A stretch of DNA of 64,000 nt. Source: Candidatus Nitrososphaera evergladensis SR1 (lineage in GTDB: Archaea > Thermoproteota > Nitrososphaeria > Nitrososphaerales > Nitrososphaeraceae). The stretch lies in NCBI RefSeq assembly GCF_000730285.1, contig NZ_CP007174.1, positions 620,001 to 684,000 on the forward strand. Reading direction: 5' to 3'. A program made the translations under genes and the position numbers. The notes under the pieces are model-generated. The model was not told the origin of the DNA and ran no database searches. It saw only the letters and a list, made by a program, of their open reading frames with translations. Position 1 is the first letter of the stretch. Every line of letters starts with the position of its first letter. Shown here one piece after another: positions 50,276-57,737 of the stretch.

Positions 50276-51649
50276 ATGTTTGACAACCTGCGTGACGGCC
50301 TGAGGAGCGCGCTCAAGAAAATAGTGGGCGCATCCGACATTAACGAGGAGCTTATCGATTCATTATGCAAGGACATCCAGCGCTCGCTCTTGCTGTCAGA
50401 CGTAAAGGCAGGGCTTGTCAAGACAATTACCGATAACCTGAAGCAGCGCGCCCTGACAGAGCAGCCGCCAAAGGGGCTCTCGCGCAAGGACCACATCGTT
50501 ACAATACTGTACGGCGAGCTGGCAAGGATGCTAGGCTACTCTGGCGAGGTAATAACCACTATTGACAAAAAGGGCATAGACGACGACCCCGGCGTCACCG
50601 CGTTCTTCAAGCCCGGCAAGCAAAACGTCGTGCTCCTTCTTGGCATACAGGGCTCCGGCAAGACGACCGTCACTGCAAAACTTGCAAGGTGGCTCACAAG
50701 GCACGGCTATCGGGTCGGAGTCGTCGGCACGGACACGTGGCGCCCCGGCGCGCTGACGCAACTAAAGATGAACTGCGCCAAGATAAACGTCGAAGTATAC
50801 GGCGAAGAGGAGAGCAAGGACGCAGTCGGCATTGCAAGGCACGGCCTTGAGCATTTCAAGCCCCAGAATCTGGACGTCATAATCATAGACACCGCCGGCA
50901 GGCACAAGGAAGAAGCTGGCCTCCTGCAAGAGATGGCCGAGATGCACAAGGCATCGACGCCGGACCTCGCGTTGCTCGTTCTGGACGGGACCATCGGCCA
51001 GCAGGCGTACAGCCAGGCTGAGGCGTTTCACAAGGCGGCGCCATTAGGCGGCATCATTATTACAAAACTTGACGGCACTGCCAAGGGTGGAGGCGCCCTT
51101 GCCGCCTCTGCGGCCACGGGTGCAAAGGTGATGTTCATCGGAACAGGCGAGCGCATCGACGACCTGGAGCAGTTCTCGCCCACGCGCTTTGTCGGCCGCC
51201 TGCTCGGCATGGGCGACATCAAGGCACTATTGGAAATGGCCAAGGGCCTTGAGATGCAGGCAGACGAGAACCAGGCCAAGAGGGTGCTGTCAGGCAAGAT
51301 GACGATTGAGGATTTTTACGCTCAGATGGAGCAGGTGAGCAAGATTGGCTTCCGAAACGTCATCGAAAACATGCCCGGCCTTTCCGGCATGGTAAAAGAA
51401 GATCAGCTGGACGCGATGCAGGCTCGCATGGAAAAGTGGCGCTTTATCATCCAGTCGATGACCAAGGACGAAAAGAAGGACCCCGACCTCATTAACGAGG
51501 CGCGGCGCAAGCGCATAGCCCGAGGCTCGGGGATGCCCGAAAGCGAGGTCAAGCACATGATCACGCAGTACAACAACTCCAAGGCCATGATGAAGCAGTC
51601 CAAGGGCCGGCAGATGCAGGGCCTCATGAGGAAGTTCGGACTTGGCTGA
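50276..51649 (+). CDS. srp54: Signal recognition particle protein SRP54
   Basis: GTPase that binds 7S RNA and signal sequences for co-translational targeting. 457 residues: N domain (about 1-90), G domain with the P-loop [17 protein letters not shown] (about 120-136), [23 protein letters not shown] (G3), [13 protein letters not shown] (G4/G5 region, about 263-275), and the Met-rich M domain (about 330-457; ending [19 protein letters not shown]). Length and motifs are complete. It overlaps the Pus10 gene by 8 bp. Confidence 0.96.
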
Positions 51650-52811
51650 TGCCGCCGCCCCAAACGCCCTCCTATTGCTGTTAAAGGAATACCAACTATG
51701 CAAACACTGCCTGTTGCGGCAGGCTGGCGGAGCATCGGCGGGCAGCAGAAGCAGAAAGGCACCTGAAGGAAAAAAATGCTACATCTGCAAAGGGCTCTTT
51801 GAGAGGCTTGACGAGGTTGCAAAAAAGGCGCTCCTTGCGACCAAACAGTACCGCCAGTTTGACACTTTTCTTGTGGGAGCGACGCTTCCGACGCAGCTGT
51901 ACGAACGGGAGGACGCGCTGCGCGCCCGGCTCAAGATCCGCGGAAGGGAGAGCGTCAAGAGCCAGCTTACAAGGGAGCTTGGGACGCGCCTTGCAAGGAT
52001 GACCAGTAAAAAGGCTGATTACTTGCGGCCGGACCTGGCAGTCAGTGTCGTGATAGGCAAGAACGGCGAAGTCGAGGCGGCGGCAAGGGCAAGGCCGCTT
52101 GCCCTCCTGTGTAGGTATGTAAAGCGTGAACGTGGCTTGCCACAAAAGGCCGAGAAATGCCCGCTCTGCCTCGGCAAGGGGTGCAACCTCTGCGACGGCA
52201 CCGGCCTTGCCGCTGCCGACCAAGGGAGCGTCGAAGGCATCGTGGCCAAGCACATCATGAAAATAACGGGAGGCCAGGCGCCGAAATTCTCGTGGATAGG
52301 AAGCGAGGATCAGTCAAGCCTCGTCCTTGGGCGGGGAAGGCCGTTTTACGTCAAGGTGTCAGACCCAAAGTTGCGCAAACCAAGGAGAACAAGATTTGCA
52401 GAGGCAGGCATCGAAGGGAGGGTGGTAGAGGTGCTCGACGACATGCCGGACACGCAGGCGCGCTTTGCAGTCAAGACCAGAATTGCCTGCAGGTGCGAAC
52501 GCGCGATTGCGACGGATGACATCAAGAAACTAAAGAAGTCGCTTGCAGGCTCGCAGGCAAGATTTGAAAACAGGGCCAAGGTTGCAATAAAAAAGATTCA
52601 TTCCGTACAAGCCAAAAAAACTGCCGCTGAAGGCGAGTTTGTGCTTACAATCGTGGCCGACGGCGGCCTTCCTATCAAGCAGTTCGTGGGAGGCGAGCAG
52701 TACATCGAGCCAAACGTTTCAAGCCTTCTAAACACCAAGTGCGAGTGCGCCGCGTTTGACATTCTCAAAGTAGATCTTCTCAACACCGGCAACAAATTGG
52801 GCAATCGCTAG
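51642..52811 (+). CDS. pus10: tRNA pseudouridine synthase Pus10
   Basis: Makes pseudouridine 54 (and 55 in archaea) in the tRNA T-loop. 389 residues from TTG 51642, overlapping the srp54 stop by 8 bp. N-terminal zinc site CKHCLLR...CYICK (about 20-49) and THUMP-like region (about 65-150) are present. An additional CPLCLGKGCNLCDGTG (173-188) inserts a second Cys cluster. The usual catalytic motif G-R-E-D-x-D-x-R-x-L-G reads G-S-E-D-Q-S-S-L-V-L-G (220-230), so the first Asp (D223) remains but the following R and D are changed. The rest (GRGRPFYVKV; C-terminal catalytic lobe) is typical. Confidence 0.9.
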   Translation: MADAAAPNALLLLLKEYQLCKHCLLRQAGGASAGSRSRKAPEGKKCYICKGLFERLDEVAKKALLATKQYRQFDTFLVGATLPTQLYEREDALRARLKIRGRESVKSQLTRELGTRLARMTSKKADYLRPDLAVSVVIGKNGEVEAAARARPLALLCRYVKRERGLPQKAEKCPLCLGKGCNLCDGTGLAAADQGSVEGIVAKHIMKITGGQAPKFSWIGSEDQSSLVLGRGRPFYVKVSDPKLRKPRRTRFAEAGIEGRVVEVLDDMPDTQARFAVKTRIACRCERAIATDDIKKLKKSLAGSQARFENRAKVAIKKIHSVQAKKTAAEGEFVLTIVADGGLPIKQFVGGEQYIEPNVSSLLNTKCECAAFDILKVDLLNTGNKLGNR

Positions 52812-52895
52812 CGGTATTTTGAGCACGAGCTTTGCCAGATGTCTTGACGGTTGAACAGTGCACTTATCATTGTCTTTTTACAAAGATCTGCTGCC

Positions 52896-53717
52896 ATGGC
52901 AACTTCGGAGCGACGTACTGGCGGCAACAACAGCCGCGGGCCGGTCCCAGACGAAAACGGGGTCATGATGTACGACTATGGCGGCTCGACAGGCATAGTC
53001 TACAACCCTACCGTGGTTGCCACGTACGGGCTGCAGTACCACGACAGTTACCAGCGGACAGGCGATCCGCAGGCAAGGCAGAACCTCATCAACACCGCCG
53101 ACTGGCTGCTAGAGCACGCAAAAGAACAGAAATACAAATGCAGCAAGTATTCGCTCTGGCAGTATGGCTTCAGGTGGGGATGGTACGGAGGAGTCGATCC
53201 TCCATACGCCTCGGCACTTGCACAGGCCGAAGGAATCAACGTCTTGCTGCTGGCAAATGAAATGACAGGGGGAGGTGGCCACGATCGCTATGTTGCAGAG
53301 GCGAAAAGGGCTTTTGGCGCGTTTTTGGTCGACTATGACGACGGCGGGGTTACAAGCGACGAGGGGAGGGACTCGATATTCCTGCAGCTTTTGGCCAAGC
53401 CGGGCTTTCAAAAGACCTACGTGCTAAACGGCCACCTGAACTCTCTGATACAAGTATGGAAATACTATCAGTACACGCGCGACTATCGTGCGCTCATCGT
53501 GTTTGGCAAGGGAGTAAACTGGCTCACAGCTGACGGCAACCTGCAAAAATACTACACCGGCGACTGGTCTTACTACGACCAGATGGGCAACAGGGCACAG
53601 GACAACTATCATCGCGGGCACATTAGCCAGCTTGGCAAGCTCTACGAAATAACAGGCGAGCCTGTACTGAAAGAGTACTGCGACAGGTTTGCCGCCTGCA
53701 TCAGGCAAGACCTGTAA
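52896..53717 (+). CDS. D-glucuronyl C5-epimerase-domain protein
   Basis: 273 residues from ATG 52896. The C-terminal epimerase family pattern covers nearly the whole protein: GIVYNPTVVATYGLQYHDSY (about 31-50), WGWYGGVDPPYASALAQAEGINVLL (about 92-116), a GGV strand, YVLNGHLNSLIQVWKYY (about 179-195) and DWSYYDQMG then NYHRGHISQLGKLYE. Eukaryotic members convert glucuronate to iduronate in heparan; archaeal and bacterial ones probably modify surface polysaccharides. It has no signal peptide. It may be co-transcribed with pus10, 85 bp upstream, although function does not link them. Confidence 0.85.
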   Translation: MATSERRTGGNNSRGPVPDENGVMMYDYGGSTGIVYNPTVVATYGLQYHDSYQRTGDPQARQNLINTADWLLEHAKEQKYKCSKYSLWQYGFRWGWYGGVDPPYASALAQAEGINVLLLANEMTGGGGHDRYVAEAKRAFGAFLVDYDDGGVTSDEGRDSIFLQLLAKPGFQKTYVLNGHLNSLIQVWKYYQYTRDYRALIVFGKGVNWLTADGNLQKYYTGDWSYYDQMGNRAQDNYHRGHISQLGKLYEITGEPVLKEYCDRFAACIRQDL

Positions 53718-53869: not shown

Positions 53870-54298
53870 TTAGTAGCCGTTGTCATTGTTGTTGTTATCG
53901 TTGTTGTTGTTATGCAGTATGCATACAATGGTGTCCTTTCCATTTTCATCGTCCTTGCTGTAGCTTGACCATTGGTAGTCATCCTTGTTGTCATTGTTGT
54001 CGTCCTTGGAGAAGCAAACGCAGCTATTGTCATTGTTGTCATTGTCGTCATCATCATCATTGCTATTGTCCTTGTTGTAGCTTGACCATTGGTAGTCGTT
54101 ATTGTTGTCATTGTCGTCGTCATCCTTGTTGTTGTCGTCCTTGAAGACGCAAACAACAAAGTCCTTGTCGTCCTTGTTGTATCCGTTCGAGCTTGCAAAC
54201 GCAGCTGTCGGCATCGCTACTATTGCCAGTGAAGCGATTGCGAAACCCAGCGTCAAGAGGGCGAAGGTCGCCCTTCTATGCGCCATTAGGCTTGGCAT
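53870..54298 (-). CDS. Secreted Asp/Asn repeat protein
   Basis: About 142 residues. A signal peptide (MAHRRATFALLTLGFAIASL... to AAFA) is followed by an acidic low-complexity region made of imperfect repeats: a short Cys-containing strand (VVCVFKDD, SCVCFSKDD, TIVCILH), a run of D/N, and DYQWSSYxKD (twice). The repeats are also visible in DNA as a 22-bp direct repeat at 53959-53980 and 54076-54097, 117 bp apart, hence in frame. TATA (54319-54327) places the start at ATG 54298. Possibly a calcium-binding or surface protein; no family recognised. Confidence 0.6.
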   Translation of the reverse strand: MPSLMAHRRATFALLTLGFAIASLAIVAMPTAAFASSNGYNKDDKDFVVCVFKDDNNKDDDDNDNNNDYQWSSYNKDNSNDDDDDNDNNDNSCVCFSKDDNNDNKDDYQWSSYSKDDENGKDTIVCILHNNNNDNNNNDNGY

Positions 54299-54304
54299 GT
54301 ACAT

Positions 54305-54767: not shown

Positions 54768-55493
54768 ATGAGCTTTGACCCGCTTTACAAGGTACACGAC
54801 GCTGCCCGCGCGGGCCAGATCCCCGAAAAAACCTACAAGCTGATAGTCAAGCGTTTTCCGCTCGTCAAGGAGGGGATAAAGCGGGTCGAGGATGCGTCGG
54901 GGTTGAAATACCCGTACTTTTACGTCGAGCCGTCTATGGTGGTTTCCACGTCGGCAGCCGAGTTTGCGCAGTTTGGCGTCTTTTTCGCCCGCACGATACC
55001 GGTGATTGGCGATGACAACCTGCTCCGCGTAGTGGTGCAGTTGACGGCGCCGCTGGTAGCGTTTGGGCTGAAAGGCACGATACATGCGATTCTGGCGCAC
55101 GAGTTTTTGCACTATCTAGAGCTTGTAAGCAGGATAGTCAAGATGAACGTGATATCTGACGAGATATCCGGCACCCTCTTTGAGGGCAGGTACGCCGACT
55201 CGGGCAAGCTCCTCGAAGAGCGCGCAGTCTTCAAGTCAGACCCCACTCTTTTAAAGCACATTACGACCCGCTTCCCCGAAGGTTTCCGGGACTACAAGCT
55301 GGAAGACAAGTCGATAAAGCTGTGGATGGACAAGGGCCTGCCAGTGATAAGGGTGCCAATAGACGCAAACGTGATCAAGATACCGGTGCAGGCAATGGCG
55401 CGCCTGCAAGTCGAGCAGGAAATCCGGGACAAGATAGCCGAGTTTGAAAGCGTAAAACTGCGCAAGCGCAAAAGCCCGACCGGCTATGTCTAG
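54768..55493 (+). CDS. HExxH zinc-metalloprotein of unknown function
   Basis: A 241-residue soluble protein from ATG 54768 (frame open from 54738). The core helix holds HAILAHEFLHYLEL: H111-E112-x-x-H115 is a zincin motif. A third ligand may be Glu in the LFEGRYADSGKLLEERAVF segment (about 146-164), typical spacing for gluzincin-like enzymes. The C-terminal 60 residues are charged and helical, ending in a Lys-rich KLRKRKSPTGY. No known protease family is recognised. The stop overlaps the nucleotidyltransferase-kinase gene by 8 bp, so the two probably act together. Confidence 0.65.
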   Translation: MSFDPLYKVHDAARAGQIPEKTYKLIVKRFPLVKEGIKRVEDASGLKYPYFYVEPSMVVSTSAAEFAQFGVFFARTIPVIGDDNLLRVVVQLTAPLVAFGLKGTIHAILAHEFLHYLELVSRIVKMNVISDEISGTLFEGRYADSGKLLEERAVFKSDPTLLKHITTRFPEGFRDYKLEDKSIKLWMDKGLPVIRVPIDANVIKIPVQAMARLQVEQEIRDKIAEFESVKLRKRKSPTGYV

Positions 55494-57141
55494 TATATCG
55501 CCGGCAGAACTACAAGTATTGCAAAAATGCATTGATAAAATCGCCAAGGGCCGCAAGGTCGCCGCGGCGTGCATCTACGGTTCAAAGGTCGCCGGCTATG
55601 CAAGGCCGGACAGCGACATCGACGTCATTGTCGTGCTTGAAAACTATCCGTACAGGGTAAAGTATGCATACGTAAAGGAATCCGGCATTGACGTTTCCGC
55701 CCTTGTCGTGAACAAAAAGTCGCTTGAAAGGGACGCAAAGAGCGCGCGCATGGGCGAGTTTGTGGCAGGCCGGCTCCTGCATGTCTACGAGCCGATGATA
55801 AACCCTGAATTTTTCGCACAAGTTGAACGAATCTACAAGCGCCGGGTGATACTTGAGGAGCTGCAGGAGCTTGTAAAATCATCAAGCGTCCTTGCAACGG
55901 AAATATCATTTCCGCTCGAATACATTGCGTTTTCAAAGGTAAAGCGCCGTGCGGCAATGTACCCAAACGCCGCGTACAGCTATTTCAAGACCTACAACAC
56001 AACAGCAAGCCCGCGCAACATCGACTTTGCGATGCAGGGCTACAGGCGGGCACTTGCTGACATTGTGATTGAAGACCCCGGGCTGTTCATAATCGACGGG
56101 CCGATGCTCCGGCTGTCTGGCGAGCGCGTCAAGTTTGCGCGTGGCAAGCCTGTACTTCACCTGACAAAAAAGCTCCGGCATTTCATCAGCTCGTACGTGG
56201 TCCACTCGTACGCCGGCAGGCACATGTTTCACCTTGCTGTCAAGGAGGCCGAGTCAAAGATCCGCCGCCACGTCAGCCAGCACGTCGAGTTCCCGCCATT
56301 TCTTGCGTGCCCTGCGTGCGAATACTGGAAGATACCCGAGGGCGCGCTTGTAGTAGTGGCAGACAGGCACAGCGGAGGAGACTGGATTGATGCCGTCGCA
56401 CAGGCGCACGGCATCTCTTCTGGATATTCTGCAAAAAAGCGCCGGCTTGGCAACCCAAACAGCAGGACGATGCTCTACACGCTAAAGCACGGTGGCAGTG
56501 AGTTGAAAATAGCCGCAAAAGAGCTTGCCCGCACAAAGTCGGTCAAGTGGGCCGCTCTAAGCATGTGGACCGCGCAGGTAAAAAAATTCAAGGTCGACCC
56601 TATGTACCGACTTGGGACCGAATACCGGGCTTTGCGATACCTGCGCACGCTTGGGCTCAAGACGCCTGAAATAGAGGCCGTGGTCCTTGACAGAAGGATT
56701 CTTGCGACCCGGTTTGTGGAAGGTACAAGCCTTGCCGACATTATCCGGGACGCGCTTGCCGGCAACAGCAACGACTTTGGACTTGTCAGGGAAGCTGGAA
56801 GGCAGGTTGCAGTTGTCCATGCGCAAGGCGCGTGCTTTGGCAACATCAAGCCCAAGAATGTGATCGCAAGTGACAATGAGCTGTGGTTCACAGACCTTGA
56901 GCAGTTTGTCTTTGAGGGTGGCGACCCTGTATGGGACCTTGCGCAGTTTGTGTGCTGGGGCTTGAAAGGAAGCGCAAACGCGCCAGTGGCAGCAAAAGTG
57001 GCAGCTGAATTCCTAAAAGGGTACGGGAATGAGCAAGTGGCCGGCCGACTCGCGCAGAGCAAGCGCTACATCGAGAATTTTTTGCCTGTCCTGTCGCCGC
57101 AGGTGGCCAGGGCGATTAAAAACGTGGCCCGTAGCCTGTAA
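55486..57141 (+). CDS. Nucleotidyltransferase fused to a kinase-like domain
   Basis: 551 residues in three parts. N-terminal minimal nucleotidyltransferase (about 10-110): YGSKVAGYARPDSDIDVIVV carries G32-S33 and D44-x-D46. Middle (about 110-320): unrecognised, with CPACEYWK. C-terminal (about 375-550): a Bud32/RIO-like kinase lobe, EYRALRYLRTLGLKTPEIEA, FVEGTSLADII, then VHAQGACFGNIKPKNV. In that motif the usual HGD is FGN, so the catalytic Asp is Asn453, while N458 and the DFG-like FTDLEQ are kept. It may be a pseudokinase or an AMPylating-type kinase. It overlaps the HExxH gene and converges on S27ae. Confidence 0.75.
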   Translation: MSSISPAELQVLQKCIDKIAKGRKVAAACIYGSKVAGYARPDSDIDVIVVLENYPYRVKYAYVKESGIDVSALVVNKKSLERDAKSARMGEFVAGRLLHVYEPMINPEFFAQVERIYKRRVILEELQELVKSSSVLATEISFPLEYIAFSKVKRRAAMYPNAAYSYFKTYNTTASPRNIDFAMQGYRRALADIVIEDPGLFIIDGPMLRLSGERVKFARGKPVLHLTKKLRHFISSYVVHSYAGRHMFHLAVKEAESKIRRHVSQHVEFPPFLACPACEYWKIPEGALVVVADRHSGGDWIDAVAQAHGISSGYSAKKRRLGNPNSRTMLYTLKHGGSELKIAAKELARTKSVKWAALSMWTAQVKKFKVDPMYRLGTEYRALRYLRTLGLKTPEIEAVVLDRRILATRFVEGTSLADIIRDALAGNSNDFGLVREAGRQVAVVHAQGACFGNIKPKNVIASDNELWFTDLEQFVFEGGDPVWDLAQFVCWGLKGSANAPVAAKVAAEFLKGYGNEQVAGRLAQSKRYIENFLPVLSPQVARAIKNVARSL

Positions 57142-57145
57142 GAGG

Positions 57146-57355
57146 CTACTTTTTGCCCTTCTTGGGGGCTTCTTTGCGCGCAAATTCCGTGTAGCCGCAC
57201 TTGCCGCACGTAAAGCGGTCCTTGTGCTCCGCCATGAACACGCCCTTGCCGCATTTCAGGCATTCGCGCTTGTTCCTTGTGACCTTGTTGCCCTCTACCT
57301 TGTAAAACTTGTAGACTGCAACCTCGCCCTTTGCTGGAGCCTTTTTGTCTGCCAT
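57146..57355 (-). CDS. rps27ae: Small ribosomal subunit protein S27ae
   Basis: 69-residue zinc-ribbon protein (CLKC at about 32-35 and CGKC at about 50-53) with a basic Lys-rich N- and C-terminus. The family hallmark KRECLKCGKGVFMAEHKDRFTCGKCGYTEF is complete. Together with S24e directly upstream it forms the conserved archaeal S24e-S27ae operon. It converges on the kinase-fusion gene with 4 bp between stops. Confidence 0.93.
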   Translation of the reverse strand: MADKKAPAKGEVAVYKFYKVEGNKVTRNKRECLKCGKGVFMAEHKDRFTCGKCGYTEFARKEAPKKGKK

Positions 57356-57356
57356 G

Positions 57357-57737
57357 CTACTTCTTGGCGCCTCCCTTGGCGTCAGCGGCTGCCGCCTGCT
57401 TGGCCTTTAGTTTTGCGGCCTTTTCCTCGTCGAGCAGCTTTTTCCTGTCGGCTTTGGGCATGGTGCGAAGCATGCGGTATCTCGGCAGCTGCTTCTTTGC
57501 AGCCTCCTCGTTTTCATAGACGTAGAAAACCGCGTGAACGTCCGTCATTCCTGTCTCGCATACAAGGTTTATCGGGATAACTATTTTTTTGTCGACCCCA
57601 AGCTGGCTCGCTACCTGCTCGGCAGCCTCTGTCTTTTTCAGCTTGCCGGCGGCTCCCCTGAACAGCGCCTTTACCTCGCGCCTGCTCAAAAGCGAGTTCT
57701 TGCGGTCCTCTAACATCACTACTGCTTCTTGCGACAA
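57357..57737 (-). CDS. rps24e: Small ribosomal subunit protein S24e
   Basis: 126 residues; the family signature is EDRKNSLLSRREVKALF (about 10-26), followed by IVIPINLVCETGMTDVHAVFYVYEN and a Lys/Ala-rich tail. It starts the S24e-S27ae pair, whose genes are 1 bp apart. In many archaea this pair neighbours the Kae1-Bud32 gene; here the kinase-like fusion occupies that neighbourhood. MSQEAVV at 57737 is the likely start. Confidence 0.93.
   Translation of the reverse strand: MSQEAVVMLEDRKNSLLSRREVKALFRGAAGKLKKTEAAEQVASQLGVDKKIVIPINLVCETGMTDVHAVFYVYENEEAAKKQLPRYRMLRTMPKADRKKLLDEEKAAKLKAKQAAAADAKGGAKK

Follow-up and report, generated by a model that had tools for sequence, protein, structure and literature searches.

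The window, ie the whole 64,000-nucleotide stretch of Candidatus Nitrososphaera evergladensis SR1 DNA that was analysed, belongs to a genome assembled as a single contig of 2.95 Mb. It contains two adjacent genes, P0001 and P0002, whose features are given in Table 1. Both frames are open where a preliminary description of the locus had placed them, and their 8-bp overlap was found as it had reported. An equal overlap recurs in all eight of the named Nitrososphaeraceae loci (L183-L190) and is therefore not a matter of chance; the two are proposed to be ordinary chromosomal genes that are coupled in translation. The pair is preceded, in the Nitrososphaeraceae loci that were read, by a diphthamide synthase-family gene, SRP54 and Pus10, and is followed by S27ae and S24e in convergent orientation. 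The same gene order without P0002 is present at locus L163 of a family coded f2, which is presumably Nitrosopumilaceae. Pus10 adjoins P0001 in L159, L160 and L161. In the window a C5-epimerase-domain gene (52851-53717, + strand) and a gene for a secreted-looking Asp/Asn-rich repeat protein (53870-54304, - strand) lie between Pus10 and P0001, as they do in the nearest relative, L177.

Table 1. Features of the P0001/P0002 locus, in positions of the window.
Feature	Positions	Strand	Basis
Pus10-like gene, neighbour upstream in many loci of the order	51642-52811	+	neighbourhood reading
P0001, zincin-like protein, 241 aa	54768-55493	+	open frame
HExxH motif, H111 E112 F L H115 (HEFLH, residues 111-115)	55098-55112	+	alignment
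D144, candidate third zinc ligand, 29 after H115	55197-55199	+	conservation
Overlap of the P0001 and P0002 frames, 8 bp	55486-55493	+	frame ends
P0002, nucleotidyltransferase (NTase) / middle domain / Bud32-like kinase fusion, 551 aa	55486-57141	+	open frame, profiles, model
NTase signature GS(x10)DxD, residues G32 to D46	55579-55623	+	Pfam, alignment
Middle domain, Tam41-like by fold, about residues 106-290	55801-56355	+	AlphaFold model
Bud32-like kinase lobe, about residues 315-551	56428-57138	+	profiles, model
N453, Asn replacing the catalytic Asp of an HxD-type loop	56842-56844	+	alignment, tree
Ribosomal protein S27ae, convergent neighbour	57146-57355	-	neighbourhood reading
Ribosomal protein S24e, convergent neighbour	57357-57737	-	neighbourhood reading

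P0001 had been described as a zincin-motif protein of no known family, and it matched none in Pfam (E up to 10) or NCBIfam. Within its HEFLH motif, H111, E112 and H115 were unchanged in all 67 of the relatives aligned. D144 was likewise present in 67/67, and E139, the alternative candidate for the third ligand, in 62/67. A SprT-like model matched 17 of 41 P0001 relatives, with E 0.005 at best. Judged from its AlphaFold model (pLDDT 88.8), P0001 looks like a minimal, single-domain metallohydrolase of the zincin type.

The N-terminus of P0002 matched the Pfam families Polbeta (31.3 bits) and NTP_transf_2 (29.6 bits), both above the curated cut-offs, and the signature and the modelled fold of the pol-beta superfamily nucleotidyltransferases are both present. 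The strand position usual for the third acidic residue is non-acidic in P0002; E91, unchanged in all 37 of the N-terminal halves aligned, is a candidate only. In the AlphaFold model (pLDDT 92.3, pTM 0.92) residues 1-257 give Z values of 12.8-13.7 against Tam41, the best alignment of this predicted fold being to 7ecd (Z 13.7, rmsd 3.8, 209 residues aligned). The PF09139 (Tam41) profile, searched at E up to 10 in 101 genomes, left P0002 unmatched in its own genome; membership of the Tam41 family is ruled out by this profile, and the likeness in fold remains. The genome's only other NTP_transf_2 match, at G000:C1:2529077-2529382 (L001), lies inside a 503-residue frame.

The C-terminal lobe scored 42.6 bits (E 4.6e-11) against the arch_bud32 model, the cut-off of which is 125 bits, and a profile of the P0002 family matched solved Bud32 at E 1.6e-14. 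Human PRPK and archaeal Bud32 match residues from about 290 to 551 of the AlphaFold model at Z 16-18 (best alignment Z 17.7, rmsd 3.9, 207 residues aligned; Foldseek E 3e-7). The small-molecule kinases APH and methylthioribose kinase also resemble the lobe (Z 13-15). The C-terminal part is therefore kinase-like, and the proposed joining of an NTase to a Bud32-like lobe was borne out. The motif corresponding to HGD reads FGN, with Asn-453 in place of the catalytic Asp of an active Ser/Thr kinase, and K345, E379, N458 and D470 are kept. This exchange of the catalytic Asp for Asn, with the ATP-binding residues retained, resembles that of known functional pseudokinases, eg ErbB3. Going by these residues, kinase activity has probably been lost in the window's genome. 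The earlier suggestion that phosphotransfer may be lost stands, with the refinement that only in the Nitrososphaeraceae is the catalytic Asp changed; relatives outside that family have, with few exceptions, intact kinase residues, and in many of them the NTase motif is eroded instead.

The pair had also been said to occupy an S24e/S27ae neighbourhood normally used by Kae1-Bud32. Both ribosomal genes do adjoin the pair, but the normal use by Kae1-Bud32 was not confirmed: a motif scan of the 30 best-scoring Bud32 loci, which is a weak test, placed S27ae within 1.5 kb of Bud32 in none of them. Nor is there support for P0002 taking the place of Kae1-Bud32, as Kae1 adjoins a proper Bud32 elsewhere in the window's genome. 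Bud32 was above the cut-off in 384 of the 398 genomes of the phylum, and P0002 as its replacement is ruled out on both counts.

Within the window's family, P0002 was found in 22 of 70 genomes and P0001 in 43 (the tally of 26 P0002 matches includes four weak matches to kinases). One of the 22 copies of P0002 is broken, in pieces with stops (G004), and another ends at a contig edge (G035). All 22 P0002 genomes also carry P0001, which occurs alone in 21 of its 43, and in these searches 27 genomes had neither. Across the phylum 221 of 398 genomes matched P0002 at E up to 1e-3, the weak matches being other kinases, and about 95, counted by hand among the matches listed, reached E 1e-20. P0002 belongs to a family that is spread widely over the phylum and is separate from true Bud32. 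P0001 was matched in 95 of the 398 genomes, mostly of the same order, with distant relatives in families f7 and f39. These distant relatives (L171-L175) are among metabolic genes, away from ribosomal genes, and those of f7 adjoin a putative M42-type peptidase, identified by eye.

In the scan of named genomes the best 80 of 107 confirmed P0002 loci were used. They came from Nitrososphaeria, Bathyarchaeota, Terraquivivens, Methanomethyliaceae and one MAG labelled Methanomassiliicoccaceae, and the nearest named relatives were Nitrososphaera MAGs. The MAG labelled Methanomassiliicoccaceae (L231) and a Methanomethyliaceae MAG (L224) have a P0002 that falls inside the Nitrososphaeria clade, without P0001, which would reflect either transfer or mis-binning. 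Two kinases of 500-590 residues from family f19 (L154 and L155) carry DLEQ and DANPxN loops and differ in their N-terminal half; they may represent an additional and more remote branch of the P0002 family.

In 49 of these best 80 loci P0001 is the gene directly upstream of P0002, in 48 as judged from the frames and in L219 by tblastn, the simple longest-frame gene calling having missed it there. The remaining 31 comprise L200 and L258, which start at contig ends, L224 and L231, and 27 loci of the other clade. In 20 loci of that clade (two of them repeated contigs, L142/L257 and L131/L253) P0002 has an RNase J-like gene downstream on its own strand, at most 85 bases away, and in all 20 the NTase motif is eroded; in L240 the RNase J-like gene is one gene further on. 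No neighbour conserved across all members of the P0002 family was found. The pairing of P0001 with P0002 is thus conserved, both in these loci and in every P0002 genome of the window's family. The NTase, kinase and protease had been suggested to form one module, and this did not survive as a conserved unit, because the zincin is not an obligatory partner, being present alone in about half of its genomes within the window's family and missing beside P0002 in the other clade, and because one head is often eroded.

In all, 139 P0002 sequences were collected; removal of 10 identical copies left 129, of which 110 were used for the tree and the motif tables. The 19 dropped were L149-L155 and L157, which have no recognisable NTase half or are very distant, and 11 of the 18 Nitrososphaeraceae copies from the family search. 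Residues 32, 33, 44 and 46 were scored for the NTase and 345, 379, 445, 453, 458 and 470 for the kinase. The words intact and eroded describe these motifs, not activities, and N-terminal halves with one acidic residue might work as Tam41 does. Both heads are intact in 48 of the 110 rows. The NTase motif is eroded in 36, all with intact kinase residues; the kinase residues are altered in 22, all with an intact NTase motif; and the kinase is missing from four in which the NTase is intact, in one case (L251) owing to a contig end. Not one of the 110 rows has both heads affected. As read from their motifs, the two heads decay reciprocally across the P0002 family.

The tree, a quick one with several long branches, has two main clades. 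D453 is present in all 45 rows of the Bathyarchaeota and Terraquivivens clade, of which nine have the full NTase motif; G32, S33, D44 and D46 are intact in all 65 rows of the window's clade. Since the motif states follow the clades, few events, and not 110, lie behind the partner pattern and the lack of rows with both heads lost. An independent correlation between partner and motif state was not supported: in six independent pairs differing in the RNase J-like partner, the NTase state followed in 0.7 on average and was unchanged in 5.3 (p 1), so that the pattern of partners holds at the level of clades. Scoring gave neither partner to 14 rows with an intact NTase and 18 with an eroded one; among the 14, L219 does have P0001 by tblastn, and contig ends cut the loci of L200 and L258.

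Position 453 is Asp in 87 of the 106 rows in which it is filled. The 18 Nitrososphaeraceae copies other than that of the window have Asn in 16, Ser in one and Asp in one. The loss of D453 maps once, to the base of the Nitrososphaeraceae, with one return, L010; this copy weakens the case for a simple irreversible loss, though it carries E379A. Altered kinases outside the Nitrososphaeraceae are those of L213, in which the last Asp is changed, and L135, with Asn changed to His. In the marine thaumarchaeal MAGs L249, L250 and L252, P0002 ends after the middle domain, with S27ae 6-10 bases beyond the end of the frame, and the NTase and P0001 are kept.

Selection was estimated by the Nei-Gojobori method for the window against seven relatives. 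The omega values are rough, because dS was near or above 1 in all pairs but one, the nearest, which alone had dS below 0.5. They were 0.13-0.21 for the kinase half (six of seven pairs computable; 0.13 in the nearest pair), 0.12-0.21 for the NTase (7/7), 0.16-0.29 for the middle domain (five of seven computable) and 0.05-0.13 for P0001 (7/7). The altered kinase half is thus still under purifying selection, and its simple decay is unsupported inside the genus. Decay of P0002 as a whole does occur nearby, in the G004 copy.

The explanation that we prefer, although the whole of it is given somewhat less than an even chance, is that of a coupled pair in which a zincin-type P0001 is controlled or served by a P0002 with a working NTase and a pseudokinase. 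The anatomy of the pair, taken alone, is very probably right. P0002 would be an ancient two-headed protein, in which an N-terminal NTase with a Tam41-like middle domain precedes a Bud32-like kinase. In the Nitrososphaeraceae, the window's genome included, the NTase would be the working head and the kinase domain a pseudokinase, still under selection with its ATP-binding residues kept and probably nucleotide-sensing or structural. The acceptor of the nucleotide transferred by the NTase would most likely be its operon partner or a substrate common to both proteins, and this transfer would control or follow the zincin. The conserved anatomy, the clade-wide NTase motif, the kinase-free marine versions and the constraint on the kinase half speak for an NTase whose kinase lobe is a pseudokinase; that the NTase is active and the lobe regulatory is our inference. 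The link to the zincin is drawn from the overlap of the frames and from the fact that P0002 never occurs without P0001 in the window's family. Elsewhere in the order there are lineages that have P0001 but not P0002, so that the zincin does not need the NTase.

The neighbours would fit a part in translation or RNA quality control, in which P0002 acts on a tRNA, rRNA or ribosomal protein and the differing neighbours belong to the same process. Pus10, SRP54, the diphthamide synthase-family gene, S24e and S27ae all point that way, as do the SRP54 and Pus10-like genes found again in Terraquivivens, the RNase J-like gene of Bathyarchaeia and the closeness of the kinase to Bud32 of the tRNA-modifying KEOPS complex. 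Such genes cluster in archaea anyway, however, and the f7 relative of P0001 sits among metabolic genes; we consider this reading rather unlikely. Sequential activation of a small molecule or lipid is also judged unlikely. By this account a substrate phosphorylated by the kinase is turned by the NTase into an activated nucleotide conjugate, as in other kinase-transferase fusions; in the Nitrososphaeraceae the phosphorylated substrate would come from another source. The match of the NTase and middle domain to Tam41, a CTP:phosphatidate transferase, the 48 rows with both heads intact and the likeness of the lobe to APH and methylthioribose kinase are in its favour. Against it, each head is lost singly and in different clades, the Tam41 family is not matched, and the closest kinase match is Bud32, not a small-molecule kinase. 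Moreover, D44 and D46 are both kept in the window's clade whereas Tam41, in a passage of PMC11646218, keeps one acidic residue of three.

Two further readings have the hydrolase restrained or controlled by P0002. MntA nucleotidylates its HEPN partner and so restrains it, and in a toxin-antitoxin-like arrangement P0001 or the RNase J-like partner would be restrained by nucleotidylation through the NTase head or by phosphorylation through the kinase head. The tight operon pairing, with a hydrolase on one side or the other depending on clade, and the match of the NTase to the MntA model, weak and below cut-off, are consistent with this. The clade-wide inheritance and strong constraint seen here set the genes apart from mobile toxin-antitoxin pairs, and the family genomes with P0001 alone are not to be expected for an unguarded toxin; such a system is highly improbable. 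Distinctly doubtful, too, is an ancient archaeal regulator that either head could run, the NTase controlling the zincin in Nitrososphaeria and the kinase controlling the RNase J-like hydrolase in Bathyarchaeia, with the idle head a selected sensor. If true, hydrolases would here be controlled by a module of a new kind, its modification chemistry swapped on a constant scaffold.

The preferred reading, an NTase with a pseudokinase lobe paired with a zincin, is built of parts already known in kind. In the open-access papers searched there was no NTase-kinase fusion like P0002, and neither the way in which the parts are combined nor the alternate loss of the heads was found described. This agrees with the preliminary description, which could match the locus to no described system. 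The main text of a paper on archaeal fusions (PMC11237513) does not contain the word nucleotidyltransferase. What emerges is a fusion protein present across much of a phylum, without a named family, in which two active sites are lost alternatively. In soil ammonia-oxidising archaea the pair is conserved, the NTase active-site residues are kept and the key kinase residue is lost. Because the heads are lost alternatively, each can be tested on its own, and the natural mutants for both would allow a direct test of kinase-NTase fusions and of archaeal pseudokinase roles; these mutants include cultured soil ammonia oxidisers. There is also a lead to the function of a metalloprotease-like gene kept in most of the ammonia-oxidising archaea examined.

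Compared with known systems, P0001 has an HExxH helix in common with the minigluzincins and the SPRTN/SprT-type proteases and aligns with their fold at Z 6.9-7.9, a likeness that may reflect a common arrangement; it differs in that Z stays below 8, no family is matched above cut-off and the candidate third ligand is acidic and 24-29 positions on. The RNase J-like partner of the other clade matched RNase J models in all three proteins scanned (E 3e-27 to 5e-34), below the curated cut-offs of RNase J/beta-CASP, and its closest solved chain, 2az4, is an uncharacterised protein. In MntA-HEPN (type VII toxin-antitoxin) the partner is a HEPN protein, whereas P0001 carries HExxH and has no Pfam family, and the MntA model scored 24.7 bits on the NTase of P0002 against a cut-off of 60 (E 1.6e-5). 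The ANT(3'')(9)/minimal nucleotidyltransferases have the signature YGS..aG....SD.D in common with P0002 (E 8e-4 with the family profile), but over about 40 N-terminal residues only, and are without the middle domain and kinase. Bud32/PRPK, the KEOPS kinase, shares fold, profile and spacing of catalytic residues with the lobe of P0002, which in contrast is far below the Bud32 cut-off, fused to an NTase and away from Kae1. In SpTam41, as given in a passage of PMC7018664, the NTase comprises residues 28-189 and a winged helix residues 190-319, with CTP between the two. Tam41, a CDP-DAG synthase, has an NTase followed by a winged helix, and residues 1-257 of P0002 align with both in the predicted fold, with two acidic residues retained to the one of Tam41 (PMC11646218, same passage).
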